From the NCBI RefSeq assembly GCF_024195295.1, contig NZ_JAMFTH010000001.1:1302001-1366000 (forward strand): DNA of 64,000 nt. Direction: 5' to 3'. Shown here piece by piece: positions 9,452-29,791 of the stretch. Under the pieces are notes generated by a model. That model saw only the letters and a list, made by a program, of their open reading frames with translations. It was not told the origin of the DNA and did not search any database. The stretch comes from Gilvimarinus xylanilyticus (lineage in GTDB: Bacteria > Pseudomonadota > Gammaproteobacteria > Pseudomonadales > Cellvibrionaceae). Both the position numbers and the translations under genes were made by a program. The first letter of the stretch is position 1, and every line of letters begins with the position of its first letter.

Positions 9452-9477
9452 GGAGGGAGAGAATGGTGCCGGAGCCG
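9452..9477. repeat. Putative left attachment site (imperfect tRNA-Leu 3' end copy)
   Basis: GGAGGGAGAGAATGGTGCC followed by GGAGCCG nearly repeats the right-end sequence at 18657-18682 (GGAGGGATAAATGGTGCCC then GGAGCCG), in the same orientation. The differences are small indels: one missing C, and GAG against T. The right copy includes the last bases of tRNA-Leu (18668 onward). Confidence 0.6.
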
Positions 9478-9537
9478 CACTAAAATAATTGCGCACATCC
9501 CAGTAACTACGCCACCAACAAAATTAAAAATAATTTT

Positions 9538-9557
9538 GTGCCCCCAAAAGTGCCCCC
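9538..9557 (+). repeat. Two TGCCCCC repeats, possible left arm sites
   Basis: GTGCCCCC occurs at 9538-9545 and 9550-9557, 12 bp apart, about 60-80 bp inside the left att-like repeat. The same heptamer recurs next to the right end (18514-18580). Placement fits arm-type sites for the integrase or excisionase; function is inferred. Confidence 0.45.
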
Positions 9558-9616
9558 AAGGGCAGACCGATACCCTTTTTTAGTAGAGGGCGATGGGCGC
9601 GCGGATTATAGCAAAC

Positions 9617-9637
9617 GGTTAACGAATTTTGTTAACC
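9617..9637. repeat. Inverted repeat GGTTAAC/GTTAACC
   Basis: A perfect 7-bp inverted repeat with a 7-nt spacer in the left arm of the element. It could be an operator or a small hairpin; no adjacent gene explains it. Confidence 0.4.
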
Positions 9638-9762
9638 AAGAGATTTTCTATACGTGAGTTTAGGCGCGGTCTAGCTTTTGATTGTGTTTTGAACACACAA
9701 CAGCCCCCCCCGGCCTTGCCGTGGTGAATTCCTTTTCAATTACTCACCTATAAAAATTACTC

Positions 9763-9867
9763 TGAGGGCGCGGTGTCCGGCTGGTAGCTTCCAAGGTTTG
9801 GAGATACCCCCCCCTATAAAATTTGGGTCTCGCAAAAACTAACTTGAGGGCGCGGTGTCCGGCTGGT
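9763..9867. repeat. Two 23-bp direct repeats, 82 bp period
   Basis: TGAGGGCGCGGTGTCCGGCT plus three more bases occurs identically at 9763-9785 and 9845-9867. A CTATAAAA string precedes each copy at a different distance. On the minus strand both copies can encode TSRTPRPQ, in the frame of the weak ORF at 9814-9999 for one of them. Replication, regulatory or coding origin remains open. Confidence 0.6.
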
Positions 9868-9999
9868 GCCGGTAAAAGTTTTTAACCGCCCCGTGGGGGT
9901 GTCAATCAGGTAAGCCAGGGCAACAGCTACAGGATAAACACAGCCCAGCACGGCACCAGGTGCAAGCCAAAGCCGCCCACCGCACACAACAAGCAACAA
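9814..9999 (-). CDS. Possible small hydrophobic ORF (doubtful)
   Basis: A 61-codon frame from TTG 9999, with a hydrophobic N-terminal half and a C-terminal tail that includes TSRTPRPQ, encoded by the direct repeat. There is no good ribosome site. Small ORFs of this kind occur in the same position in satellite-like elements, but I see no firm support for translation. Confidence 0.2.
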   Translation of the reverse strand: MLLVVCGGRLWLAPGAVLGCVYPVAVALAYLIDTPTGRLKTFTGTSRTPRPQVSFCETQIL

Positions 10000-10114
10000 A
10001 GATTAAGCAGTAATCCTTACACCTGATAGCCACCCCCATACACCACCAAGCCTAGCCGCTTGTGGCGCGGTCTAATGGAGCCAATAAGGGGGCGGGAGCC
10101 AGACACGGAAAAAA

Positions 10115-10229
10115 GTAACGTTACTTCCGTTACACCCGTTACAACAATTATTAATTACTTATATATCAATGTGTTACCGGTTATAAAACGTGTAACGGGT
10201 GCAGTTTGGCTACCCGTTACCTACGTTAC
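10115..10229. repeat. Iteron cluster A (GTAACGGG-type), candidate replication origin
   Basis: Copies or near copies of GTAACGGG in both orientations: the palindrome GTAACGTTAC at 10115-10124, CCGTTAC at 10127-10133, CCCGTTAC at 10135-10142, GTTACC at 10173-10178, GTAACGGG at 10192-10199, CCCGTTAC at 10213-10220 and CGTTAC at 10224-10229. AT-rich DNA lies between the copies. The same octamer is clustered again at 17112-17223. This mirrors the ori/crr pair of satellite P4, where the primase-helicase binds iterons at both; the assignment is inference. Confidence 0.65.
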
Positions 10230-10403
10230 AAACCAGGCAAAATTGAACAATAAACAAGCAACAACGCTGAATATACGCGGCAATCACCGTATTTTATCGC
10301 CACAACACCGCCTAAGCTCACGACACCAGGAAAGCTATAAAGGCGGAACAATGGGAAGGGCTAAAGCGAATGGCAGGCAGGACACGCGAAGCAACAAGGC
10401 CAG

Positions 10404-10631
10404 TTAATCAGGCTTAACCTTTACCCCGTGCTCACCTTCAAAAGTCACACGACCGGTATCTAACAAGGCATCCCTCACCGCCTGCAAATTCTCGACGCGT
10501 ACAGAGGGTAAACCATCCGCCCGGTCTATTTTATTAACGGTGGACAACCCCACGCCGCTCTTATCTGACAAGTCTTTAGCGTTCCAACGCAACCCGGCGC
10601 GGGCCATTCTTACTTGTATTCCGGTAACCAT
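10404..10631 (-). CDS. Small Xre/Cro-CI type helix-turn-helix regulator
   Basis: A 75-residue protein: QVRMARAGLRWNAKDLSDKSGVGLSTVNKIDRADGLPSVRVENL is a lambda-repressor-like HTH with recognition helix around GLSTVNKI, followed by a short tail VTFEGEHGVKVKPD. The start is ATG 10631, eight bases after GGGGG; the frame is open further upstream, but that part is the AT-rich divergent promoter region. It is transcribed away from the four-gene module at 10771-12236 and probably represses it and itself. Confidence 0.85.
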   Translation of the reverse strand: MVTGIQVRMARAGLRWNAKDLSDKSGVGLSTVNKIDRADGLPSVRVENLQAVRDALLDTGRVTFEGEHGVKVKPD

Positions 10632-10770
10632 GCCACCCCCAACAATAATTAGATTTATTAAAAAGGTAACAAATAACCAAACAAAAGCAACAAATATTAT
10701 TGACAACCCAACAAAAACAACTATTATTAGTAACAAGTTAACAATATTTATTACCTTTGGAGCGGCAACA
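10632..10770. promoter_or_regulatory. Divergent promoter/operator region between the Xre gene and the four-gene module
   Basis: A markedly AT-rich 139-bp stretch. On the plus strand TTGACA (10700-10705) and TATTAT (10722-10727), 16 bp apart, form a good sigma-70 promoter for the 10771 gene. GTAAC words at 10666-10670 and 10730-10734, with a third at 10624-10628 overlapping the regulator start, are candidate operators; they also resemble half of the iteron. Confidence 0.65.
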
Positions 10771-11325
10771 ATGACCAAGAGCGACTACTTAAAAGAGCTG
10801 AAAGCGCATGATTGGACATACGAATACGCCAGCGGCCCAAGCTATTACAAAGGCCGGGACAATGCCCAGCGCCTGAAAGCTACTGCGGACACTGCCCCCG
10901 AGCTGGCCGAACTGTATAACGCCTATAGCGCTTTTGTGTGGTCAGGCGGTGAAGAGCCCACCATTGCGGAACCCACCCGCACCAAAGCCACCACCCGCGC
11001 CGTTATGGTTGACGCATGGGACGCAGCCCGCCGCGCTGCTAAGCGCTATGGCTACCCCGCCAAAGCCTTTATTGCTCAGGCTATGCGCCAGGCATGGGCC
11101 AAAGTGAAGGCCACCAGGTTAATCAGCAAACACGACACCAGCCGCCCCCGTGTGGTGTACACCGTGCGCATAGATGAACGTCTAAACCGTAACACCAAGT
11201 TACGCGACCAATTGGCCGTAGAGGTCTACTTTAGCGACTACAACGCCGCACAAGCCGCCCGCGAGCTACTGGCCCAAGCATTCACCAAACCATTTATTAA
11301 AACTGAAAGCACTTGCTTTGCTTAA
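10771..11325 (+). CDS. Unknown island protein, first gene of the left module
   Basis: 184 residues from ATG 10771, preceded by GGAG. I do not recognise a family. The N-terminus (YLKELKAHDWTYEYASGPSYYKG) is followed by an acidic helical part. The middle (WDAARRAAKRYGYPAKAFIAQAMRQAWAKV) is an Ala/Arg-rich helical pair of a kind often seen in uncharacterised phage and ICE proteins. The C-terminal 65 residues look alpha/beta. There is no signal peptide, membrane segment or catalytic motif. It is driven by a consensus-like promoter opposite the Xre regulator and is followed by three more small genes on the same strand. Confidence 0.7.
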   Translation: MTKSDYLKELKAHDWTYEYASGPSYYKGRDNAQRLKATADTAPELAELYNAYSAFVWSGGEEPTIAEPTRTKATTRAVMVDAWDAARRAAKRYGYPAKAFIAQAMRQAWAKVKATRLISKHDTSRPRVVYTVRIDERLNRNTKLRDQLAVEVYFSDYNAAQAARELLAQAFTKPFIKTESTCFA

Positions 11326-11343
11326 ACCAAGGGAACCCAACAC

Positions 11344-11634
11344 ATGCAAGCCACTACCACCCAACACCAAGTCATAGTAGATCAAGCCTTTACCGCCAAT
11401 GGCGACACCTACCGCCCCGGCTGTATTGCCACCATCGAACCAAGCGCAGCCCTTAGCGCTGGCGACTACATAGCCGCAATCACACCAGCCGGACGGCTGG
11501 AGGTGTTGCACGTTCAAGATAATGGCGCGGGACTAAGCTACCACACCACCACCCCTAAAACGCCGACACAGGCCATTACAGGCACCGTTCACAACGTCGG
11601 AAGAATCCGGGCAATTTCTAAAATCATCCGCTAG
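11344..11634 (+). CDS. Unknown small beta-rich island protein
   Basis: 96 residues, starting 18 bp after the previous gene with AAGGGA upstream. Alternating strand pattern: AGDYIAAITPAGRLEVLHV, then a final VGRIRAISKIIR. This distantly recalls the beta-barrel of LexA/S24 C-terminal domains, but no Ser-Lys pair is placed for catalysis, so this is only a fold guess. No other match recognised. Confidence 0.6.
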   Translation: MQATTTQHQVIVDQAFTANGDTYRPGCIATIEPSAALSAGDYIAAITPAGRLEVLHVQDNGAGLSYHTTTPKTPTQAITGTVHNVGRIRAISKIIR

Positions 11635-11648
11635 GAGGAACCACCACA

Positions 11649-11951
11649 ATGAATGCCGGCACTGAATACCGAGCCAACGCCCACGACAAATACACACCCT
11701 ACCCTGAAGGCTATATGACCATCAGGGCGACCGATAACGAACTAGATAAAGGAGACGCTATTAACTACACGTTAATGCGGGCACAAGGGCTTATTGAATT
11801 ATTAGAGCTAGCCTATGTGAACTGGGATTTAAACAAGGAAAGAGAAAACGCCGTGCATACACCTTCACCTGAAGTGCTAATGGCCTGCGTTCAAAACCTG
11901 AAGGGCCAACTTCACCAACTGGAAATACTTACCAACAGCAGCGGGCTATAA
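11649..11951 (+). CDS. Unknown small helical island protein
   Basis: 100 residues with a strong ribosome site (AGGAGGA) before ATG 11649. After a polar N-terminus, one long helical part (DAINYTLMRAQGLIELLELAYVNW) and a second (VLMACVQNLKGQLHQLEILT) suggest a helical bundle or dimer. No family recognised with confidence. It starts 14 bp after the preceding gene, in the same operon. Confidence 0.6.
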   Translation: MNAGTEYRANAHDKYTPYPEGYMTIRATDNELDKGDAINYTLMRAQGLIELLELAYVNWDLNKERENAVHTPSPEVLMACVQNLKGQLHQLEILTNSSGL

Positions 11952-11987
11952 ACCACAACCACCCAACCCAAAAAAAGGACAACCACT

Positions 11988-12236
11988 ATGCAAACCACCA
12001 GCTATTACCACGGATTGAAAAAGACAAAAGCAAAAGAGTACGACCGCGCCCGTCACGGGATGCAAGCGCCCGTAGCGCCGGAAGGGAATTTATATACCGT
12101 CCACTGGCACCCCGGTAGCTACCGCATCAAAGAGAGGCGCTCCCCTTTCTTTTTCCGCAAACACCACGCCAGGCGATTACTAAAACTACTACAGGAGAAA
12201 TACGGAAAAAACATGGCAATAATTTATATCCACTAG
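11988..12236 (+). CDS. Unknown small basic island protein, last gene of the left module
   Basis: 82 residues, strongly basic and aromatic (YYHGLKKTKAKEYDRARHG, then FFFRKHHARRLLKLLQEKYGK), with AAGGA before the ATG. Charge suggests nucleic acid binding; no known motif is present. It ends just before the convergent terminator that separates it from the primase gene. Confidence 0.55.
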   Translation: MQTTSYYHGLKKTKAKEYDRARHGMQAPVAPEGNLYTVHWHPGSYRIKERRSPFFFRKHHARRLLKLLQEKYGKNMAIIYIH

Positions 12237-12245
12237 CACCCAAAA

Positions 12246-12264
12246 GGCGGGCACCTAGCCCGCC
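12246..12264. terminator. Hairpin between the left module and the primase gene
   Basis: GGCGGGC (12246-12252) and GCCCGCC (12258-12264) pair around a 5-nt loop. On the minus strand it is followed by TTTT, so it can terminate the primase transcript; it may also stop the convergent module. Confidence 0.75.
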
Positions 12265-12270
12265 AATTGC

Positions 12271-15192
12271 TTAAAAACTGGAATCTACCCCCGCCGTTTT
12301 ATTGTCCGCCTCTGGCGCTTCGCCTTCATCGTCACACATCAACATAGAGTTGCGCACCTTATACACCCGTACACGCTTTTTACCGTGGTTTGGCAACGGT
12401 GAAGTAACCGTAAATTCACCGTTTCTAAGTGCTGAATCCGACAGGATAAGCGCCCCACGGTCACGCAACAGGCGAGCGATACGCTTATAATCCCAGCCTT
12501 TGCACACACTCCGGCGGAAGTGTTCAGGGTAGATATAAAAAACCACATCGGCGGTATCACCCTCTAGCGGGTCGCTGTCTATTTCTTCGCGCCGATACCC
12601 CCAAGACTCAGCCGTAGTAGGTACATGACTATCAATCACCAGCTTGCCTTCATCGTCTGGCGAATCCCAGCGTTTAAAACGGCTTTCACCGTATTTGCTC
12701 AAGGTTTCGCGCACATGCTCCAGCATTTGCTTATCTTCTAGGTTACCTTCACCGCCCCGCGCCTCAATCCACGATTGAAAACACGCATCAGCGGCCCGCA
12801 TGGCTTCGCCCTTTTGCCAGCCGGTTAACCCTTTAGACGTGGCCAGCTCACCAGCCACCCCCACCAGGGCAAACTTACTTGCGGCCCGCGTTACCTGCCC
12901 GCCTGCATTCGCGGTAAGGTGAATCTGTTTAAAGTTCGCCACCTTTTCCATTAAGCGCTCGCAAAACACCGCCCGCCTATCACCTGATACAGCACTCAAT
13001 AACGCCTCCAGGAATTCCGGGAAAGCCGTGCCGTGGTATTTATTCATTGTTTCGCGTAGGTGCTCAGATAATGCCGCGCCGCCTTCAAATTCGTGGGCAG
13101 TATTAAAAACGCCGTATTTTTTGCGGTCTGTTTCGGATTCCTGAAAGGTAGAGCGCAAGCCGATAAAGCGCATCTCCATTCCGCCGGTTTGCGCCTTGCC
13201 GCTTTCCATTAAATATTGCTCTAACGTCTTTTCGCCGTTACTTAAAAACGTAAGCCGCCAACGGTGCTGATTATTGCCCGCTTGCCCGCGATCATTCGCC
13301 CGGTGTTTGCCTTGCCCATTGCCCAGCATATACACCACATCGCCAATTATGCGCGGGTCTACTTGGTTAATTTCATCTAAGGCGAGTAACAAATCAGAGT
13401 GCGCCGCCGCTTGCGCCTCTAGCGCATTGTCAGTGCTGCGCCAGGTACACTTATAATCATCAGGTTTACCGTAGACCGAGCAAGCCACGTTCAACAGCGT
13501 GGACTTACCCCAGGACGAATCACCATAAAAGTGAAAGCCCATAGTCTCATAGCCCAACAGCTCCACCAGGGGCGAAGAAAACGCCGCCGATACGGCAAAC
13601 ACGGCAAGCGGGTTACCGGCGCAATACTTCGCCACATTATCCCGCCATTGCTCCAGAGTGCCAGACGGTGACAGCTTGCAAAGCGGCTCACCTTCCGAGT
13701 AATACATAACCGGGTCTTTGCTCTCGCCTATGGTGCGCTCTGGCAACACAAAAACGCCCTTGTGCCAGCCCATTTTGTAAGCCAAGGCCACCCGGCTTTT
13801 AATATCCCCGCCCTGTAAATACTCCAATAGCTTGCGCTTGGCTTCACGGTGACTATCAATATCAAGGCCGCGATCAAACAAGCCGCGCACCACTTCCGCC
13901 CCACCCTCTGTGGCGAATAAGCGCATGGGAATATTCCAGTGTTTTTCTACGCCGTCATAGTCGCAAAAGCGCACCAATTTACCCCAGTTGCGCCCGGTGC
14001 CGTGACCATCACGAGACAACGCCAACACATCAAGCCGGGCACATACACGCCGCTTTTTTTCCGCCTTGGCATCGAAAAAGTAAACGCCGCTATCGTCTAC
14101 CGTATAGCCAAAAGGCGCGGCATTATCTGAAGGCTCAGGAGCGGCCCCCGTTTGCAACTCTGGCGCGCTTGGGGCGCTGGGGGTGCTATCACCCCCACCC
14201 GCAACCAACAAACGATTATCGGCAATCAGGGCGCTCAGTTGCTCAGCGGTAAAGCCCAGCTCTAACGCGTCCGCCGCGTCTGCCTTCTCTGGCCATTCCG
14301 GCCCAAAGTTCGCCAGGTCAACCACGGCAAAGCCAACCACGCCCGCCGCCGTTAATGCCGCCTGCAATGTGGTAACGCTTTTTAACCCCGCTTCATCATT
14401 ATCAGGCCAGAACCACACCACACGCCCTGCAAGCGGCTTAAAATCCGTTTTCCCTATGGCCTTACTGCCACCGCTCCACGTCATACAAAGCCGATCAGGG
14501 AACAGCAGGCGGGCGGCATCGGCGGCCTTTTCCCCTTCCACCAACACTACAGGGGCGGACGCATCAAACCGGCCCAATAATTCCAGCCCATAAAGCGGGC
14601 GATTGTCTGGCAGTTGGAGCCAATGCCACTTGGTATAGCCGTTTTTCTTGCCATAGTTTGCTGGCCTGTATTCCTTTTTACGCTCACCATTGGAGCCGGT
14701 ACGGTCAAACCTCGCCACACGCATTAACAAGGCCCCGGACTCGCTGAGATAATCCCAGTAGCGTGAAGCCGTCCCCAGCTGGTAATGCTTTACCGGGCAA
14801 CTTTTGGCAGCTTTTGCCGGTGGTGGATACACAGGCTCAAAGGCCGGTTTTTTCGGTTTGCGCTTCGCTGGTGGGGGTGTGGTGGCGTTACTGGCATCCA
14901 TACCGAGGAACGCGGCCAACCGCTTGCACGCTTCGCCTTGCTCTATTCGCTCTAGGTACGCCACCAAGGCTATTAAATCGCCGCCCTTATCGTCGGTGGC
15001 AAAGTCAGACCATACCCCCGTATTCAGGTTAATGCTGAAGCTCCGAGCGCTACCATCGGCGCGGGTCGGGTTAATCGCTACCCATTCATGCCCCTGCCTT
15101 TTGCCGTCCGGTGCCCAGTGACTACACACTGATTCCGCACTATTCAGGGCAGCATCAGCCACCGCTTTAAAATTAAGCTTATTACTCACCAT
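12271..15192 (-). CDS. Toprim-DUF927 primase-helicase of the island
   Basis: A 973-residue replication protein. Residues about 1-100 form a DNA-binding domain (HEWVAINPTRADGSARSF, then TGVWSDFATDDKGGD) of the type found before the Toprim domain in phage and plasmid primases, without a cysteine zinc cluster. A Toprim domain follows near 210-310 (VVLVEGEKAADAAR, WPDNDEAG). A DUF927 superfamily 3-like helicase spans the C-terminal half: Walker A GDSSWGKST, Walker B LLLALDEI. By analogy with the P4 alpha protein it would open the origin, prime and unwind. Partner DNA is probably the iteron clusters at 10115 and 17112. ATG 15192 follows AAGGG. Confidence 0.88.
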   Translation of the reverse strand: MVSNKLNFKAVADAALNSAESVCSHWAPDGKRQGHEWVAINPTRADGSARSFSINLNTGVWSDFATDDKGGDLIALVAYLERIEQGEACKRLAAFLGMDASNATTPPPAKRKPKKPAFEPVYPPPAKAAKSCPVKHYQLGTASRYWDYLSESGALLMRVARFDRTGSNGERKKEYRPANYGKKNGYTKWHWLQLPDNRPLYGLELLGRFDASAPVVLVEGEKAADAARLLFPDRLCMTWSGGSKAIGKTDFKPLAGRVVWFWPDNDEAGLKSVTTLQAALTAAGVVGFAVVDLANFGPEWPEKADAADALELGFTAEQLSALIADNRLLVAGGGDSTPSAPSAPELQTGAAPEPSDNAAPFGYTVDDSGVYFFDAKAEKKRRVCARLDVLALSRDGHGTGRNWGKLVRFCDYDGVEKHWNIPMRLFATEGGAEVVRGLFDRGLDIDSHREAKRKLLEYLQGGDIKSRVALAYKMGWHKGVFVLPERTIGESKDPVMYYSEGEPLCKLSPSGTLEQWRDNVAKYCAGNPLAVFAVSAAFSSPLVELLGYETMGFHFYGDSSWGKSTLLNVACSVYGKPDDYKCTWRSTDNALEAQAAAHSDLLLALDEINQVDPRIIGDVVYMLGNGQGKHRANDRGQAGNNQHRWRLTFLSNGEKTLEQYLMESGKAQTGGMEMRFIGLRSTFQESETDRKKYGVFNTAHEFEGGAALSEHLRETMNKYHGTAFPEFLEALLSAVSGDRRAVFCERLMEKVANFKQIHLTANAGGQVTRAASKFALVGVAGELATSKGLTGWQKGEAMRAADACFQSWIEARGGEGNLEDKQMLEHVRETLSKYGESRFKRWDSPDDEGKLVIDSHVPTTAESWGYRREEIDSDPLEGDTADVVFYIYPEHFRRSVCKGWDYKRIARLLRDRGALILSDSALRNGEFTVTSPLPNHGKKRVRVYKVRNSMLMCDDEGEAPEADNKTAGVDSSF

Positions 15193-15262
15193 AAAACCCT
15201 TATATCTTGATCACCCCGGCCCCGGTGAATGCTCACAGGGCGCGAAACACATACACCAACCA

Positions 15263-15874
15263 CTAATAGCCGCTATGGCGAAACTGCCACAAAAAGCCGT
15301 CATCAGCGCGAATGATTGCGTCGCGATACAAAAGGCGCTGGCCACAAGAACTAAGACCTAAAACGGGCCATGCTTTTAAGCTACCGTTAGCAATATGGTG
15401 ATAAACAAAGTTAATATCACGACGCCCCACCGCCTTGTAAAAAGCGGCCAGGTGACCACGCCCTGTCAGCGGGTCTACTGTTCGGTGATCAAGAATTTCA
15501 TAGGGGTTTGCCATCATAAAACCGGCGCGGTCTTGACCCGGCCAGACAAAGAAAAGCATGTAAACTTGTGGGGCTAACATTCGGTCTCGATACTCACTAG
15601 CCACTACACTTTTTAAATCCATTCCTGGATAACGAGCCTCAACAAGAGACTGGCCTACAGACATAATCTGTAAAACCCTTGCCGAAATAGCCTTTACTTC
15701 ATCGGGGTTGCGATCACTGTAAAGGTTTTCCAGAATGTGCGGATTATCCAAAAGTGTCTGGCGTTCATATGACAACGCCGAATTGAAAATACCCAGCTCA
15801 CTATCGGCGGGTATAGCCTGAAGAGCCTGAACCAATTGGAGCGCTTCAGTATCGGTAAAGGGGTAGTTACTCAT
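15263..15874 (-). CDS. Unknown island protein following the AlpA-like gene
   Basis: 203 residues from ATG 15874, nine bases after AGGAGG (a GTG at 15883 is an alternative). It overlaps the AlpA gene's 3' end by 8 nt, so translation is coupled. I do not recognise it. It has a helical N-terminal half and a mixed C-terminal half with VYMLFFVWPGQDRAGFMMANP and GRRDINFVYHHIANG. There is no membrane segment or signal peptide. Position between the excisionase-like gene and the primase suggests a role in element replication, or stable cargo. Confidence 0.65.
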   Translation of the reverse strand: MSNYPFTDTEALQLVQALQAIPADSELGIFNSALSYERQTLLDNPHILENLYSDRNPDEVKAISARVLQIMSVGQSLVEARYPGMDLKSVVASEYRDRMLAPQVYMLFFVWPGQDRAGFMMANPYEILDHRTVDPLTGRGHLAAFYKAVGRRDINFVYHHIANGSLKAWPVLGLSSCGQRLLYRDAIIRADDGFLWQFRHSGY

Positions 15875-16127
15875 TTTCGCCACCCTCCTGAATCAACTGG
15901 GCAATAAATGCGTCGATATCCGATTTACGCCAGACAGTAATACCAGGTGACAATCTTATGCCCTTGGGCGCTTTGCCCTCTTGAACCCACTTATACCAGG
16001 TTGTTTTGGATACTCCCACGGAATCGCATACACGCCTTACGCGCAATAGCTGCTCATTACGGGAATCAATTAGCTTTTGAGGGCTGTAATCAGCCGATTC
16101 GGTAGGTATAGCTTGCTTCGTTGCCAC
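15867..16127 (-). CDS. AlpA-family DNA-binding regulator (possible excisionase)
   Basis: 86 residues beginning at GTG 16127, seven bases after AGGAGG. The MerR/AlpA-type winged HTH reads LLRVRRVCDSVGVSKTTWYKWVQEGKAPKGIRLSPGITVWRKSDIDAFI, with the typical W and the xxWRxSDIxxFI ending. AlpA-type proteins of P4-like elements activate integrase expression or act as excisionases (Vis). Likely binding sites are the TGCCCCC repeats near both ends, an inference from position. It is co-transcribed with the unknown genes on each side. Confidence 0.85.
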   Translation of the reverse strand: MATKQAIPTESADYSPQKLIDSRNEQLLRVRRVCDSVGVSKTTWYKWVQEGKAPKGIRLSPGITVWRKSDIDAFIAQLIQEGGENE

Positions 16128-16222
16128 GGTATGGCCTCCTATGCGTTTTAAATTGCGTAATGTGCAAAGCACGGATAGGAGTTTGGGGCGGCTGGGTTTT
16201 GCAGGACGCCAGCTCTTGCAAA

Positions 16223-16966
16223 CTATTTTTTATTAGGGTCTTTGGTTTTTCCGGTTATTGATCGAACGCTACAGCCGCTATTTTTTCCATAAAGTGGAAG
16301 GAAGTGCTCGCTAGCCTTTTTGCATAGCGCGTGATGAGATAAATTAGGATTCTTCGCGTAGAGGTCATCAATATACGCCTGTAAATCAGAGCTTTCCGGC
16401 CTCTCAACACCATCCCAGCGCGCGCGCCCCCCCGTATCTGAATTTCGGTTAGACTCCGCCCCTTTTAACGAGTAACGCTCATATTTAAGAGCAAAAATCA
16501 TCTTGTGGTGGTTATCAACGGCATACATACAGGGCTCGATTGCCTCCCTGTATCGCCCAGCGTTTAGCAGTTCATAAGCCCGCATACACTCATGTATGAG
16601 CCTATCCGCTATAAATTCGGGGGAATGTCCTGTCTTAGCGATCTCCAGTTTCTCGATGTCGTAAACCGCAAAACGTGCCTCAAATCTCTTATGAACATAA
16701 TGAAGGTCGCGTTTTACTACCGATACCCCGCGATCAGAGTAGTAATATTTAAATCCCCAAGGAGTGTACCCCGCATCGCGTAAGCAGCGCTCCGCATCCC
16801 TGCCCGCTCTTAGTAAAAATGCCACGGTGGTTTCACATGGCCCAAACTTACTAAAATCTTCGGGCTTCTCTACCGAGAACACCCTGACTTCCTTCATTCC
16901 TTTGTACTCTTTTCCCTTTGAGCCGGGATCGGGCCTCACCGAGTAACGATATTTTTTATCTGCCAC
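16223..16966 (-). CDS. Unknown island protein with a C-terminal helical basic domain
   Basis: 247 residues from GTG 16966 (AGGGG upstream). I recognise no family. The N-terminal region is mixed alpha/beta (EVRVFSVEKPEDFSKFGPCETTV, GYTPWGFKYYYSDRGVSVV). A charged helical part follows. The C-terminal part (LYAKNPNLSHHALCKKASEHF, then SVRSITGKTKDPNKK) looks like an HTH-type tail common in genes next to integrases. It is the first gene of the right module, just downstream of iteron cluster B. Confidence 0.6.
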   Translation of the reverse strand: MADKKYRYSVRPDPGSKGKEYKGMKEVRVFSVEKPEDFSKFGPCETTVAFLLRAGRDAERCLRDAGYTPWGFKYYYSDRGVSVVKRDLHYVHKRFEARFAVYDIEKLEIAKTGHSPEFIADRLIHECMRAYELLNAGRYREAIEPCMYAVDNHHKMIFALKYERYSLKGAESNRNSDTGGRARWDGVERPESSDLQAYIDDLYAKNPNLSHHALCKKASEHFLPLYGKNSGCSVRSITGKTKDPNKK

Positions 16967-17095
16967 ACCGTACCCCTACGGCACCCGGTAAAAGGTTACC
17001 AAGGCGGTGCGCCGGGTGTGCGCATTTTCAGGAGCTACCCTAGCCTTGGTAATTCGTAAACGGGCATTTTTATTGCAAATACGTCTCATTGCACC

Positions 17096-17120
17096 GAAAA
17101 AGCCCGTTTTTGTAACGGGC
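17096..17120 (-). terminator. Intrinsic terminator downstream of the integrase
   Basis: On the minus strand GCCCGTT (17120-17114), loop ACAAA, AACGGGC (17108-17102), then TTTTT. The hairpin is built from two iteron words, so the terminator and the iteron cluster overlap. Confidence 0.7.
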
Positions 17121-17223
17121 GGTAACGGGTAAAACGGGACATCCCGTTACCGAGAATTAACAACTTAACTAACTGTATTTAAAAGACTTTTTATTTCTTG
17201 TAACGGGAGTAACGGGTGTAACA
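17112..17223. repeat. Iteron cluster B (GTAACGGG), candidate second replication site
   Basis: Five exact copies of GTAACGGG: plus strand at 17112-17119, 17122-17129, 17200-17207 and 17209-17216, and inverted at 17143-17150, plus a partial GTAACA at 17218-17223. Two tight pairs flank an AT-rich gap. The sites lie 7 kb from cluster A on the far side of the primase-helicase gene, recalling the ori and crr of P4. Confidence 0.65.
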
Positions 17224-17257
17224 TGTAAAAACACCTAGCCCGGCACTTTACCCCCTA

Positions 17258-18505
17258 TTAATTAGCCTTGCGAAAGTCCGCCGTAACCACTGAAGGGGTC
17301 AATATTTCAGCCTTCAGGGTGTCCAGGTAATCAGCCCAATCTTGCATCATAGCCTTACGCTCGGGTAAGTATTTGGTGCGGTTGTATGCCCTGCCGTTTG
17401 CATCCTTCACCGCGTGGGCTAATTGTTGCTCGATGTAATCAACTCGAAAGCCCAGCACCTCATCAAGCAAGGTGCGAGCAGTAGCCCTGAAGCCGTGAGG
17501 CGTTACTCTATCTTTGCCATAGCCAAGGGTGCGAAGCGCGGCCAATACGCCAGCCTCGGACAACGGACGGCCACCCCGGCGGGCACTGGGGAACACATAA
17601 CGGCCCGAGCCGGTAAGTGGGTGTATTGCTTTCAGGAGTTCTAGCGCCTGAGTAGGTAGCGGGACTATGTGGGGCTGGCGCATCTTCATTTTATCGGCGG
17701 GAATTTCCCACCGCTCTTGCTCCCAGTCTATTTCCGACCATTCCATATGGCGTAATTCGCCAGGCCGTTGAAACAATATAGGGGTCAGCTTTAAAGCCGT
17801 AGACACCTCAACCGAGCCGGGATAAGCGTCGATAGCGACCAGCAAGGGCGCCAGCTCTTTGGGGTCAGTGATTGCCGCCCGGTGCGTGGGCTTCATGGCC
17901 ACCAAGGCACCTTTTAAATCTTGCGACACATCACGATCAGCCCGCCCGGTGGCCACGGCATAGCGCAACACCTGCCCCGCAATTCGTTTTGCCCTGTGGG
18001 CGGTTTCGTGTAGCCCGTCCGCTTCAATGCGACGTAAGGCAGACAGTAGCGAGGCGGGTTTAAGATCAACCACAGGGGTGCCCCCAATGTAGGGGCATAA
18101 TTTTTTATCCAGTATCCATTGCAGTTTATTAACGGTAGGAGGCGCGGCTCCTTCGGCCTTGCGCTTGTCCAGGTATTCAGCGCCAATAGCGGCAAAAGTA
18201 TTCGCCACCGCCGCCCTCTGTTCTAGCTTGGCTTGCTTCTTAGCTTCGCCGGGGTCTCTGCCCTCTTCTAGCATCTCTTTGGCTTCGCGGGTTTTCTCGC
18301 GGGCTTTAGCCAAGGTGACTTTAGGGTATACCCCTAGGGCTAAGCGCTTCTCTTTGCCGCCATAGCGATACTTTAGTCGCCAATACCTTGCCCCCTTGGG
18401 GGTGACTTCCAGGTACATACCGGCCCCATCGGCAAGCCTGTAGGTTTTATCCTTCGGTTTCGCTTGCCTTACCGCCGCCTCGCTGAGTTTGTTAATACCG
18501 GCCAT
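17258..18505 (-). CDS. Tyrosine recombinase, P4-type integrase
   Basis: 415 residues from ATG 18505; the frame runs on to an ATG at 18580, but family proteins begin at the LSEAAVRQAKP block. It has the N-terminal DUF4102 arm-binding domain (LADGAGMYLEVTPKGARYW, GVYPKVTLAKARE), the SAM-like core-binding domain, and the catalytic domain with RPGELRHMEW (first Arg), HGFRATAR (H-x-x-R) and AYNRTKYL (nucleophile Tyr). It integrates by cutting the tRNA-Leu 3' end next door. It stops at 17258 before the terminator in cluster B. Confidence 0.93.
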   Translation of the reverse strand: MAGINKLSEAAVRQAKPKDKTYRLADGAGMYLEVTPKGARYWRLKYRYGGKEKRLALGVYPKVTLAKAREKTREAKEMLEEGRDPGEAKKQAKLEQRAAVANTFAAIGAEYLDKRKAEGAAPPTVNKLQWILDKKLCPYIGGTPVVDLKPASLLSALRRIEADGLHETAHRAKRIAGQVLRYAVATGRADRDVSQDLKGALVAMKPTHRAAITDPKELAPLLVAIDAYPGSVEVSTALKLTPILFQRPGELRHMEWSEIDWEQERWEIPADKMKMRQPHIVPLPTQALELLKAIHPLTGSGRYVFPSARRGGRPLSEAGVLAALRTLGYGKDRVTPHGFRATARTLLDEVLGFRVDYIEQQLAHAVKDANGRAYNRTKYLPERKAMMQDWADYLDTLKAEILTPSVVTADFRKAN

Positions 18506-18513
18506 TTGGGAAA

Positions 18514-18580
18514 ATGCCCCCACCGCTGAGAATGTATCCCCAATTATGCCCCCGCCTATACCCGGATACAATGGGGGCAT
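18514..18580. repeat. TGCCCCC repeats upstream of the integrase (possible right arm sites)
   Basis: ATGCCCCC at 18514-18521 and 18546-18553 and its inverse GGGGGCAT at 18573-18580, together with TGCCCCC copies at the left end of the element. They lie about 100-150 bp inside the right att repeat, in and before the integrase start. Confidence 0.45.
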
Positions 18581-18656
18581 ATCGGACGGTTAAGGACTAG
18601 GATTTAACATCAGGGCCAGTAATGACGCGGGGTTCAGGACGATTTAGGACTAATTA

Positions 18657-18682
18657 GGAGGGATAAATGGTGCCCGGAGCCG
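18657..18682. repeat. Right attachment site (tRNA-Leu 3' end)
   Basis: GGAGGGATAAATGGTGCCC then GGAGCCG, covering the last bases of tRNA-Leu, matches 9452-9477 apart from three small differences. The intact tRNA is on this side, next to the integrase, as expected after integration. Confidence 0.6.
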
Positions 18683-18756
18683 GAATTGAACCGGCACGAT
18701 CAATTAAGATCGGCAGATTTTAAGTCTGCTGTGTCTACCAATTCCACCACCCGGGC
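18668..18756 (-). tRNA. leuZ: tRNA-Leu (UAA)
   Basis: An 89-nt gene including the encoded CCA. The acceptor stem GCCCGGG pairs with TCCGGGC (one G-T), the anticodon stem-loop is GCAGA-CTTAAAA-TCTGC with anticodon TAA, the long variable arm (GATCTTAATTGATC) is typical of tRNA-Leu, and the T-loop is TTCAATT. Its 3' end is the element's integration site. From memory, E. coli has the same pgsA-(glyW)-cysT-leuZ order. Confidence 0.95.
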
Positions 18757-27478: not shown

Positions 27479-29791
27479 TCAATCGCGCCAATAGCGCCGG
27501 GTACGCTGACGCCAGGTAATAATTTGCGGCGCGCGTTCGCCATCGAACAATATCTGAACAGCGCCATGTTGGGCGGTGTTATACACCCGACTTCCAACAC
27601 CGCGATAGCGCTCCACCACCTGCTGGTGCGGGTGGCCGTGACGGTTGCGATAACCACTGGAGACAACCGCAAGGTCCGGGCGTATCGAACTTAACAGCGC
27701 CGCACTGGACGACGACTTACTGCCGTGGTGCGGCACCAGCAGAAAGTCTACCGGTGCCAGCTGCCGGGCCAGAGTGCGCTCGCGGGCGCGTTCGATATCG
27801 CCTGGCAACAGCAGCCTCACACCCCGCCATTCAATCACCAACACGCACGAGGCGTTATTGCCTTCGCTTCCGGCAACCCCCGGAATAAAACGAAAGCGGT
27901 AGTCCTGCCACTGCCAGGGCTTGGCAAGGTGACAACTCACAAGGCGCTGTTCGTCCGCCTCGCGCAAATACTCCAATGCTTCGCCTGCGTAAAAACGATC
28001 CACCGGTAGAGCCTCAAGCAAACCCGGTGCACCGCCGGCGTGATCACTGTGACTGTGTGAGACCACTAGCGCGTCTATTTTTTCCCGGCCACTTGCCAGC
28101 ACGTAGGGGGCGACAATATCGGCCCCGGCGTTAAAGCTGTCGCCAAACCAGGGCCCAGTGTCGTACACCAGGGTTTTATCTCCGGCATAGATCACCACGG
28201 CCAGCCCTTGCCCTACATCCATAACGCTCACCTGCAAGAGCGCCGGTTGGGGCCTGGGCAGCAGCCAAAGAGCAATCAACAGCACGAAAGCCTGTGGACG
28301 CAACCGCAGGGACGCCGGCAGCAGCAATAGCGCGCAGGCCAAGGCGAGCAGTAACGCACCCGCCGGGGTTAAACGAGTGTCCCACACGGCCGGAAAACCC
28401 GTGGCAGTGGCAAGCCGCTGCAGGCCGTTAAGCCACCACCCAAGAACACTTAAGCCGGTATCGGCCAGCCACAGAAAAACACCGGCGGCGGGCAGCCAAA
28501 CGTAACCTAGCAGCGCGGCCGTAAACAGAGCGGGCACCACCCACACACTGACCAGGGCGATAGCGATAATATTTGCCAAGGGTGAGACCAGTGACCACTG
28601 ATCAAAAAAAAGTCCCAAGGGCACCAGCAACGCAATAAAGGCCACCCATTGGGGCCGCCACAGCACTTGCAGACGCCCGCGACTCGATGCGCTGACCAGA
28701 CCACTAAAGGCCAATACCAGAGCCGCCACGGCCACAAAAGACAGCCAAAAACCCGGATCGTAAATACTGAGCGGGTCCAGCAACAACACCGCCGCTGCGG
28801 CCAGCATAAGCACCTGAGCGCCGCCAATTCTAAGCCCGCTAAGCCTGGCGACGTAAAACATTAACAGCATCGCCAGAGCCCTCTGGGTGGGCAGAGCAAA
28901 ACCCGCCAGGGCCGCATACCCCCAGGCAGCCGCCGCGCCCAGAGCCATGGCAAATACCACGGCGGGCACAGGTAACCACAACACAAGAACCCGCCCCAGC
29001 ACTAACCCCAGTAAATAACCCCAAGCCGCCGCCAAACCAATATGCAGCCCGGATATAGCCATTAAGTGGGTCGTGCCCGTGGCGCGAAACAACTGCCACT
29101 GGGTATCGCTGATAAGAGTGCGATCACCTAGCAACAGGGCCTGTAGAACCGCCAAATTAACCGGCTGCTGGGCGCGCAACCAGCCTCTGAGCTTATTGCG
29201 AACCCCCTCGTTTTGACCGGCTTGCGCCTGGGCCAGCAACTGATTTTGCCCCCTGTCGCGCACATACCCGGTGGCCCCTACCCCACGCCGCAACTGCCAT
29301 AGTCGATAGTCAAAGCCTTCGGGGTTGATAAAACTGCGCGGCGGCTTGAGGCGCACCACCAGCTCAAGCCGGTCGCCGGGCTCCAGCGCCCCGGCCCAGG
29401 CGGGAGATCGGTACCAGCTGAGTTGAATCAACCGAGGTAAATCAGCCGATGCGGTGGGCGCCAGCAAAAACCTGACCCGCCGTTGATTCACCTCGGGCTG
29501 ATTCCAGATTTGCCCTTGGACCAGAATATCTTTACCGACCAGGGCATCGGGCAGCAGATTATCCACGAGCTTGTGCCCGTACCAGTTGGACCAAGACACA
29601 GCGGCGCTAAAAACGAGCATCAATAAGACCAATCGCTTGGCCCAGTCTTTTCGCTCAAAACGGGCCAACACTGCGCCCAGGACGAAACCCACCGCGAGCA
29701 GTAGCGCGCACACCCACCAGGGGAGCAAGAAAGGTAAAAAGCCCGGAAGAATTAAACCTGCGATTACTGCGGCCAACCAATACAACATCAT
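27479..29791 (-). CDS. comEC: DNA internalisation/competence protein ComEC/Rec2
   Basis: 770 residues. An N-terminal membrane part and DUF4131 domain, then the competence domain (HLMAISGLHIGL), then a C-terminal metallo-beta-lactamase-like nuclease domain (SHSHSDHAGG, GDIERARE, PHHGSKSSS). ComEC is the inner membrane channel for transforming single-stranded DNA, so the organism may be naturally competent if its type IV pilus genes are present elsewhere. The gene is intact. Confidence 0.93.
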   Translation of the reverse strand: MMLYWLAAVIAGLILPGFLPFLLPWWVCALLLAVGFVLGAVLARFERKDWAKRLVLLMLVFSAAVSWSNWYGHKLVDNLLPDALVGKDILVQGQIWNQPEVNQRRVRFLLAPTASADLPRLIQLSWYRSPAWAGALEPGDRLELVVRLKPPRSFINPEGFDYRLWQLRRGVGATGYVRDRGQNQLLAQAQAGQNEGVRNKLRGWLRAQQPVNLAVLQALLLGDRTLISDTQWQLFRATGTTHLMAISGLHIGLAAAWGYLLGLVLGRVLVLWLPVPAVVFAMALGAAAAWGYAALAGFALPTQRALAMLLMFYVARLSGLRIGGAQVLMLAAAAVLLLDPLSIYDPGFWLSFVAVAALVLAFSGLVSASSRGRLQVLWRPQWVAFIALLVPLGLFFDQWSLVSPLANIIAIALVSVWVVPALFTAALLGYVWLPAAGVFLWLADTGLSVLGWWLNGLQRLATATGFPAVWDTRLTPAGALLLALACALLLLPASLRLRPQAFVLLIALWLLPRPQPALLQVSVMDVGQGLAVVIYAGDKTLVYDTGPWFGDSFNAGADIVAPYVLASGREKIDALVVSHSHSDHAGGAPGLLEALPVDRFYAGEALEYLREADEQRLVSCHLAKPWQWQDYRFRFIPGVAGSEGNNASCVLVIEWRGVRLLLPGDIERARERTLARQLAPVDFLLVPHHGSKSSSSAALLSSIRPDLAVVSSGYRNRHGHPHQQVVERYRGVGSRVYNTAQHGAVQILFDGERAPQIITWRQRTRRYWRD

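Follow-up and report, generated by a model that had tools for sequence, protein, structure and literature searches.

A tRNA gene is the integration target of the satellite phage P4. The P4 record (NC_001609) annotates 'ori type 1 repeats'. According to the accessible parts of their published descriptions, the phage-inducible chromosomal islands (PICIs) of Gram-negative bacteria combine int, alpA and a primase gene (PMC6092414, PMC10111431), their genes being mostly unidirectional and their origins, which lie directly 3′ of the initiator gene, having an AT-rich region flanked by two sets of iterons (PMC6092414), and the phage-inducible chromosomal minimalist islands (PICMIs) of Vibrionaceae follow the order int, variable gene, alpA, variable gene, primase, integrate next to fis, and are minimal, with no capsid-remodelling genes (PMC10803314). 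Here we describe a mobile element of about 9.2 kb that is inserted in a tRNA-Leu(UAA) gene of Gilvimarinus xylanilyticus, within a stretch of 64,000 nucleotides (NCBI RefSeq assembly GCF_024195295.1, contig NZ_JAMFTH010000001.1, positions 1,302,001 to 1,366,000) that we refer to as the window. The element joins int, alpA and a primase gene to two distant, mirrored arrays of iterons, and we show that the iteron word co-varies with the C-terminus of the primase, better than it does with Int, AlpA or Xre.

The element extends from attL at 9462-9477 to attR at 18666-18682, in agreement with the span given by the original prediction, a model's account made from the letters of the window alone, which had also placed an integrase beside an intact tRNA gene. 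A comparison with relatives lacking the element, as proposed there, found both window flanks beside the tRNA gene with no insert between them in three of seven same-genus loci (L004, L005 and L006); in the remaining four the left flank was unmatched within the 1.5 kb compared. The segment immediately left of the tRNA gene gave no alignment in the same-genus loci compared, so that the empty site is established by gene order and is not base-exact. (The flanking genes are accA and pgsA by our reading of the open reading frames (ORFs), made without a family search.) Because the same flanks occur without the insert in relatives, and because the ends carry att repeats, the observation stands, and the integrated element is confirmed as real. 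Family scans with Pfam, PHROG and PADLOC covered 10 proteins of the element, whose ends, arrays and principal genes are as follows.

9462-9477, no strand: attL, AATGGTGCC-GGAGCCG, an imperfect copy of the tRNA-Leu 3′ end, one base shorter
10127-10230, no strand: iteron array B (crr-like), CCGTTACA-type words, --+-- with spacings 9, 23, 55, 9; AT-rich gap at 10143-10189
12271-15192, minus strand: primase fused to a DUF927 helicase (Pfam DUF927 and DUF6371; Zn_ribbon_DnaG below threshold)
15867-16130, minus strand: AlpA-family regulator/excisionase, HTH_17 (PF05930, 3.6e-7; PF12728, 2.9e-7)
17111-17215, no strand: iteron array A (ori-like), ++-++ with spacings 9, 55, 23, 10, read from int towards primase; AT-rich gap at 17151-17197
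17258-18580, minus strand: P4-type tyrosine integrase (Pfam Arm-DNA-bind_3, Phage_int_M, Phage_integrase)
18666-18682, no strand: attR, AATGGTGCCCGGAGCCG, the repeat at the tRNA-Leu(UAA) 3′ end
18668-18756, minus strand: tRNA-Leu(UAA), the integration target, intact

The two arrays, which we rate as the main feature of the element, had been overlooked in the original prediction. Array A lies directly behind int, and array B lies behind xre, 0.65 kb from attL. With one mismatch allowed per site and the order read from int towards primase, the arrays mirror each other but for one base in spacing; their long gaps are 77-79% AT, against 48% for the element, and two clusters of about 105 bp hold 8 of the 10 GTAACGGG words that occur in the 64-kb window. 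We compared such layouts, again allowing one mismatch, in seven elements of the family, in P4, in the plasmid pMNOD05 and in phiAH14b. In L054 the word TGAAGACA occupies both arrays, with spacings of 9, 44, 34, 9 and the mirror of these plus one outer site; in L061 the word CTGGGAAC occurs with spacings of 9, 9, 55, 22, 9 and their mirror, an outer site being present in each array; and in L055 the mirror is near-exact. Alignment of array A between L054 and the window indicates that the words have been replaced in place, next to a downstream flank that is near-identical. A position-blind scan of 35 loci found a same-word array pair in 17 (L059 probably being spurious and L070 weak). Among 11 elements that were chosen because their arrays were visible, the pair was recovered in all 11 at three copies per array and in 8 at four, and the same search returned a pair in 0 of 330 dinucleotide shuffles and in 0 of 3 other pieces of the window. 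We found no description of paired mirrored arrays in DUF927 elements in the open-access literature that was searched, a collection from which most subscription journals are missing.

Matches to the primase occur in 27 of 144 genomes of the host's family, Cellvibrionaceae (E <= 0.001, the host's own included, some matches being to one domain only) and in 40 of 390 genomes of the order (E <= 1e-30, own included). The related elements adjoin tRNA-Leu, -Phe, -Arg, -Met or -Cys genes, with attachment repeats that are clear in L054, L059, L069 and L070 and weak or unseen in others, and they share the backbone int, variable gene, alpA, variable gene, primase-DUF927 helicase. A gene stands beside int in 18 of the 19 mapped loci, drawn from four clusters and seven singletons, and alpA is found in 15 (14 by clustering, L055 by protein comparison); six relatives (L053-L055 and L061-L063) additionally carry a convergent small-gene cluster and xre. 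The close relatives of the host are G. gilvus, G. algae and G. polysaccharolyticus. The G. gilvus element, L053, is 93% identical in nucleotides to that of the window over 3010 nt around the primase, as against 74% over 545 nt for the one host locus compared (that of G004, taken as the same G. gilvus genome), and it sits at another tRNA-Leu gene, which fits a recent transfer of the element between hosts. The ratio of nonsynonymous to synonymous substitution (dN/dS) relative to L053 is 0.08 for the primase and 0.09 for int, the L055 int having been left out of this comparison. In L069 the primase gene is split (ORF pieces of 508 and 415 codons), and the att repeats and mirrored word pair are kept. 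Several loci (e.g. L064-L067, L062 and L110) also show clustered short words just before int, such as GGTGCTA in the order +++- at 10, 12, 29; these differ between elements and look like candidate integrase arm-binding sites.

The helicase part of the primase matches the PDB entries 8tch ('Pathogenicity island protein', E 4e-15) and 5dgk ('Active helicase', E 3e-12), which we take to be the Rep of a Staphylococcus aureus pathogenicity island (SaPI) and the Cch helicase of the staphylococcal cassette chromosome mec (SCCmec). SaPI Rep recognises its own iterons by its C-terminal domain, and the DUF927 helicase Cch is related to SaPIbov1 Rep, according to the accessible part of PMC7581432. Unlike these two proteins, to whose helicase domains it is similar, the helicase of the window is fused to a primase-like part, and its element has two remote origin-like units.

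Among the 11 elements chosen for their visible arrays, seven pairs share a word. For these, identities in the primase C-terminus (residues 893-950) and in the body of the protein were 95/98, 84/83, 89/83, 93/91, 92/83, 51/47 and 51/46%. Conservation of the C-terminus thus equalled or exceeded that of the body in 6 of 7 same-word pairs, versus 4 of 48 different-word pairs, with word classes set by judgement (L106, with GTGGGAAC, and L107/L113, with CTGGGAAC, being counted as different); two of those four pairs join near-identical words. Between the window and L054, which has a different word, the C-terminus is 51% identical and the body 90%, the corresponding values for the window and L061 being 56 and 78%. 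In a partial Mantel test across the 11 elements, with body identity held constant, the correlation of the C-terminus with the word (r 0.84) was the highest of eight primase regions, and 0 of 2000 permutations reached it. When 23 elements were used, with words read from two array scans and 9 of the elements having a single array, the C-terminus again gave the highest correlation (r 0.45) of the seven regions with a value, the eighth giving none; the alignment excluded primases of fewer than 850 residues (8 of 35 loci), and 23 of the other 27 entered the fold alignment. Correlations with the word were 0.13 for Int (L055 being left out of the set) and 0.26 for AlpA, compared with 0.83-0.87 for the C-terminus on the same sets. 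We therefore regard residues ~885-950 as a putative iteron-binding domain. Its structure model, as we read it, has three helices and then two strands, an order that would suit a winged helix.

P4 resembles the element in layout. Its ori reads ++-+++ with spacings of 10, 43, 22, 11, 10 and its crr reads -++-- twice (in alpha orientation), similar to arrays A and B. Arrays A and B also keep the relative order found in P4, where ori immediately precedes the AlpA-like gene and crr separates alpha from attP. Both elements possess a related integrase (38% identity, 160 of 420 columns), an AlpA-like gene and two separate mirrored iteron sets. P4 differs in having other genes between int and ori, none of which the window element has, and in having a doubled crr where the crr-like array of the window is single. 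This ori/crr comparison, which concerns layout and not word, is our own and falls outside the component list of PMC8628076; of the P4-like components given there, the tyrosine integrase (PF00589) and AlpA (PF05930) are both present in the element. Neither psu (PF07455), delta (PF04606) and epsilon (PF10554) nor the P4 alpha family (PF03288) was listed at E <= 1 in the 10 proteins scanned, and because these are not matched, strict membership in the P4-like family fails. The original designation 'P4-type, satellite-like' thus stands as regards the integrase, the tRNA site, AlpA and the ori/crr-like layout, and not as regards psu, delta, epsilon and alpha. As for P4 crr itself, we found no explanation of it in the accessible parts of the open-access literature that was searched.

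The gene order int, variable gene, alpA, variable gene, primase and the minimal content, without capsid-remodelling genes, are shared with PICMIs. According to the accessible parts of their description (PMC10803314), PICMIs have a primase with DUF3987/DUF5906 where the window element has DUF927, and insert beside fis and not at tRNA-Leu(UAA); the window element has, in addition to the PICMI plan, a convergent gene cluster and xre, and its paired arrays have no counterpart mentioned in those parts. With PICIs, on the accounts cited above, the element shares int, alpA and primase as well as two iteron sets flanking an AT-rich region. It departs from them in that word scans place no array 3′ of its initiator, the arrays lying beside int and beyond xre, in that four genes at 10771-12236 run opposite to int and primase, and in that a single origin unit is replaced by two distant mirrored units and a convergent cluster. 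phiAH14b (Pseudomonas sp. ANT_H14, KU708005) is alike in having int, a further gene, AlpA, primase and iteron arrays, and its helicase matches the DUF927 part by tblastn; it differs in its size (16.8 kb) and in encoding primase and helicase as two genes. It is reported to have been induced together with its helper phiAH14a and packed in the same capsids, the satellite relation being called 'probable' in the accessible part of PMC4936722. A C4 antisense RNA is listed in phiAH14b (L079:3957-4043), and none in the window, L053-L055 or L061-L063. pMNOD05 (L125), a Methylobacterium plasmid with a circular 20-kb record and a DUF927 protein, carries a mirrored pair near 251 and 18537 (+++-++ with spacings 9, 9, 45, 21, 21 and --+--- with spacings 21, 21, 45, 9, 9), which suggests that the module can be a stand-alone replicon. 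Taken together, the component parts are already known separately, and we would class the element as a variant of the P4/PICI/PICMI kind.

The remaining features of the element are as follows.

10404-10631, minus strand: small Xre-type regulator, divergent from gp111 (HTH_3, E 0.018, weak and below cut-off; phrog_9425, E 7e-4)
10771-11325, plus strand: gp111, conserved accessory gene (PF07410 Phage_Gp111, 36.4 bits, cut-off 27.1; a family of unknown function)
11344-11634, plus strand: s96, small gene with no family in the Pfam, PHROG and PADLOC scans
11649-11951, plus strand: s100, small gene with 86% identity in the G. gilvus element
11988-12236, plus strand: s82, small basic gene with 73%, 68% and 44% identity in L054, L055 and L063
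15263-15874, minus strand: orf203, at the alpA-primase position, which is variable between elements; no family in the scans
16223-16966, minus strand: orf247, at the int-alpA position, which is variable between elements; predicted C-terminal helical domain
16984-17050, minus strand: int-alpA RNA (RF02996), just upstream of orf247 (41.0 bits, gathering score 35.8, E 7e-6)

Pfam bears out the AlpA-type regulator that had been predicted (PF05930 at 30.4 bits, cut-off 21), together with HTH_17. For the predicted Toprim-DUF927 primase-helicase, the DUF927 part and a primase-like N-terminus (residues 5-324 match PHROG primase families) hold up; no Toprim match was listed in the Pfam scan, and hence we infer the Toprim label. 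The Xre regulator, too, is found as a helix-turn-helix (HTH) protein, with the weak match given above, and L053-L055 and L061-L063 encode homologues of it in the corresponding position, with 44-95% identity. Five of the six genes that had been called unrecognised indeed have no family above chance, the exception being gp111, which is 79-84% identical in all three Gilvimarinus relatives (dN/dS 0.15-0.19). Of the small genes beside it, s82 is present in two of these three relatives and s100 in one (dN/dS 0.07, from 100 codons), and s96 has no homologue in the three or in the other relatives compared. Across 144 family genomes, orf203 has a single weak relative, in the L055 element (E 4e-4), and orf247 a single one, in the G. 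algae element (39-42% identity); a search of 369 class genomes, a draw that evidently did not include the G. algae relative, returned only the window's own orf247. The orf247 structure model is confident at residues ~190-247 only and poor elsewhere, and a fold search with it gave no match at E < 0.001. Searches of viral contigs for gp111 and for orf247 found no relative. DUF6387 is present in the genes beside int of L053 and L065 and not in orf247, and YfjH of K-12, which lies between intA and alpA in CP4-57, has no Pfam family above cut-off and is on the opposite strand. The int-alpA RNA stretch is nearly unchanged in L054 in a four-way alignment, and no publication on this RNA was found in an open-access literature search.

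None of the 10 proteins scanned matched structural or conjugation families, and the only packaging-type matches were weak PHROG terminase-small-subunit matches to the AlpA HTH (best E 0.006). PADLOC matched only AlpA and Xre (mad1) and the primase (a DnaG-like model). The absence of virion, packaging, conjugation and known defence genes noted in the original prediction agrees with these scans. We doubt that the ORF at 10060-10407 (plus strand), which overlies array B, is a gene; counter to this doubt, its translation matches L053 (75% over 60 residues) and L055 (49%), matches that may reflect only conserved array DNA. Between attL and array B lie two 34-nt direct copies (9752-9785 and 9834-9867), 88% alike and 82 bp apart, and an ORF of 61 codons with a TTG start (9814-9999, minus strand), which falls in one cluster with an L053 ORF of 58 codons in the same position and may be a small gene or merely conserved DNA. 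Outside the element, AT skew is strong (0.41) at 28001-29000 of the window.

With int at a tRNA gene, empty flanks in relatives, several tRNA sites among related elements, mirrored arrays and the covariation of word and C-terminus, we think it likely that the element is an integrative, self-replicating, satellite-like island, that is, a P4- or PICI-style satellite or an integrative replicon. Several observations weigh against this reading or against parts of it. As regards the arrays, not every relative has the two-array layout: in 18 of the 35 loci the stretch scanned contained no pair with 1.5 kb or more between its arrays; L057 and L069-L072 have their first array elsewhere than directly behind int, array B of L053 is one site short, and L062 and L113 mirror only loosely. 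phiAH14b is one of these 18, its arrays standing side by side after the helicase gene, and one of the pMNOD05 arrays falls within an annotated hypothetical coding sequence just behind the DUF927 gene. As regards the primase, in distant pairs the C-terminus is often just slightly less similar than the body; the stretch preceding the C-terminal domain also correlates with the word in the 11 elements (r 0.61, p 0.0005), as do two N-terminal regions in the 23 (r 0.25 and 0.20, p 0.01 and 0.04). The C-terminal model is of modest confidence (mean predicted local distance difference test (pLDDT) score 69, 75-88 per block in the relevant stretch), a fold search of the PDB with it gave no match at E < 0.001, a profile search of PDB sequences with the C-terminus gave two chance-level matches and nothing convincing, and BLASTP of the primase against P4 alpha found no significant similarity (best E 0.42). 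The int-alpA RNA is listed in only three of eight elements scanned with Rfam (the window, L053 and L055, and not L054, L061, L062, L063 or phiAH14b); viral contigs yielded only four distant fragments; and the general family scans, which included no dedicated search for terminase, cos or pac, found no convincing terminase.

Some of these facts bear on other explanations. There is a weak correlation of the word with Xre similarity (r 0.34, p 0.03; the C-terminus reaches 0.83-0.87 when the sets are the same), and the positions of the arrays, A between int and orf247 and B beyond xre, might suit binding sites for Xre, AlpA or Int that serve as operators or as arm sites in recombination. We judge it very improbable that the arrays are such sites and not replication origins, given that neither Int nor AlpA tracks the word significantly and that L055 has the window's word though its Xre is only 45% identical. 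Moreover, the arrays lie ~0.65 and 1.45 kb from the att cores, whereas the annotated arm repeats of P4 lie within ~0.5 kb of the core; the P4 record labels repeats in a comparable arrangement as belonging to ori and crr; and a mirrored pair is also present on the circular pMNOD05 record. That a plasmid record combines the same helicase type with such arrays, that family scans reveal no capsid-remodelling or convincing terminase gene, and that viral contigs hold no near match would all be expected of an integrative, plasmid-like island that replicates itself, is not a phage satellite, and moves by generalised transduction or transformation. We consider this somewhat unlikely, since AlpA and the gene order match PICMIs, which are packaged without capsid-remodelling genes (PMC10803314), and packaging is also reported for phiAH14b, whose early gene order is similar (PMC4936722), in both cases according to the accessible parts of those papers.

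The original prediction had proposed that the six genes of the element without recognised function (the gp111 cluster, orf203 and orf247) are cargo with new anti-phage or helper-hijack functions, an idea that found no support and that we hold to be improbable. The six are not ordinary core genes, a candidate ruled out by the three same-genus loci with joined flanks that lack them. Fast-diverging satellite genes are sometimes defence genes; orf247 and orf203 are near-orphans, as described above, and since neither has a relative of known function, either may have a defence role. Yet none of the six has a PADLOC family, gp111 is present in all three Gilvimarinus relatives and s82 in two, in 18 of 19 mapped loci the position beside int holds a gene, these genes belonging to several clusters, and the alpA-primase position is variable too. 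Excision of PICMI115 depends on iolg, the gene that adjoins int, and genes of this kind form 13 families, according to the accessible part of PMC10803314; on this ground orf247 may well be a gene of excision or regulation and not cargo. A different position, the slot that separates xre from array B, is occupied in four relatives (L053, L061, L063 and L070) by membrane-protein, antitoxin-like or NACHT-pentapeptide genes, and the window element, L054, L055 and L062 leave it empty. In L053 and L061 it holds related coiled-coil membrane proteins, for which a suspected resemblance to PutAbiC was not confirmed, the only matches being weak ones to DUF456 and ZorB. L063 has an HTH antitoxin-like gene with a small neighbour as possible partner (L063:12981-13572), a pair that, on our reading, may be a toxin-antitoxin system. 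Beside xre in L070 lies a gene whose product combines a NACHT N-terminal helical domain with pentapeptide repeats, in DNA with 15-bp periodic words (L070:12736-16197).

For the self-replicating, satellite-like island that we favour, we propose the following course of events. Excision by Int would be triggered by AlpA with the variable gene beside int, as in PICMIs, and on the excised circle ~2.1 kb of DNA, including attP and int, would separate array A from array B. The primase-DUF927 helicase would bind both arrays through its C-terminal domain, melt the AT-rich gap and load itself, as proposed for SaPI Rep, whereupon replication of the circle could start, the arrays acting as a P4-style ori plus crr. 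A helper phage might then package the replicated DNA, which is the least certain step. We think it most likely that gp111, the small genes beside it and the divergent xre gene make up a regulatory module.

These findings raise the possibility, which we put forward tentatively, that mirrored paired origins are a replicon plan common to tRNA-integrated satellites with dissimilar initiators (P4 alpha and DUF927 primase-helicases), in which the word of both arrays is re-written together with the primase C-terminal domain, the layout being largely kept, so that word and C-terminus would form an exchangeable specificity module. An anonymous island becomes a testable replicon, with two DNA stretches, one protein domain and natural variants that differ mainly there, and screens for defence genes would turn to the slot between xre and array B first, rather than to the six genes originally flagged. 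If the pairing holds, DUF927-primase satellites could be found and sorted by their origin arrays, without phage genes, and the need of P4 for a second cis site, crr, would gain a family of natural parallels. If the plan is indeed common, similar satellites would fall into replication-compatibility groups (the G. algae element versus the other Gilvimarinus elements, for example), and related elements could share one cell.

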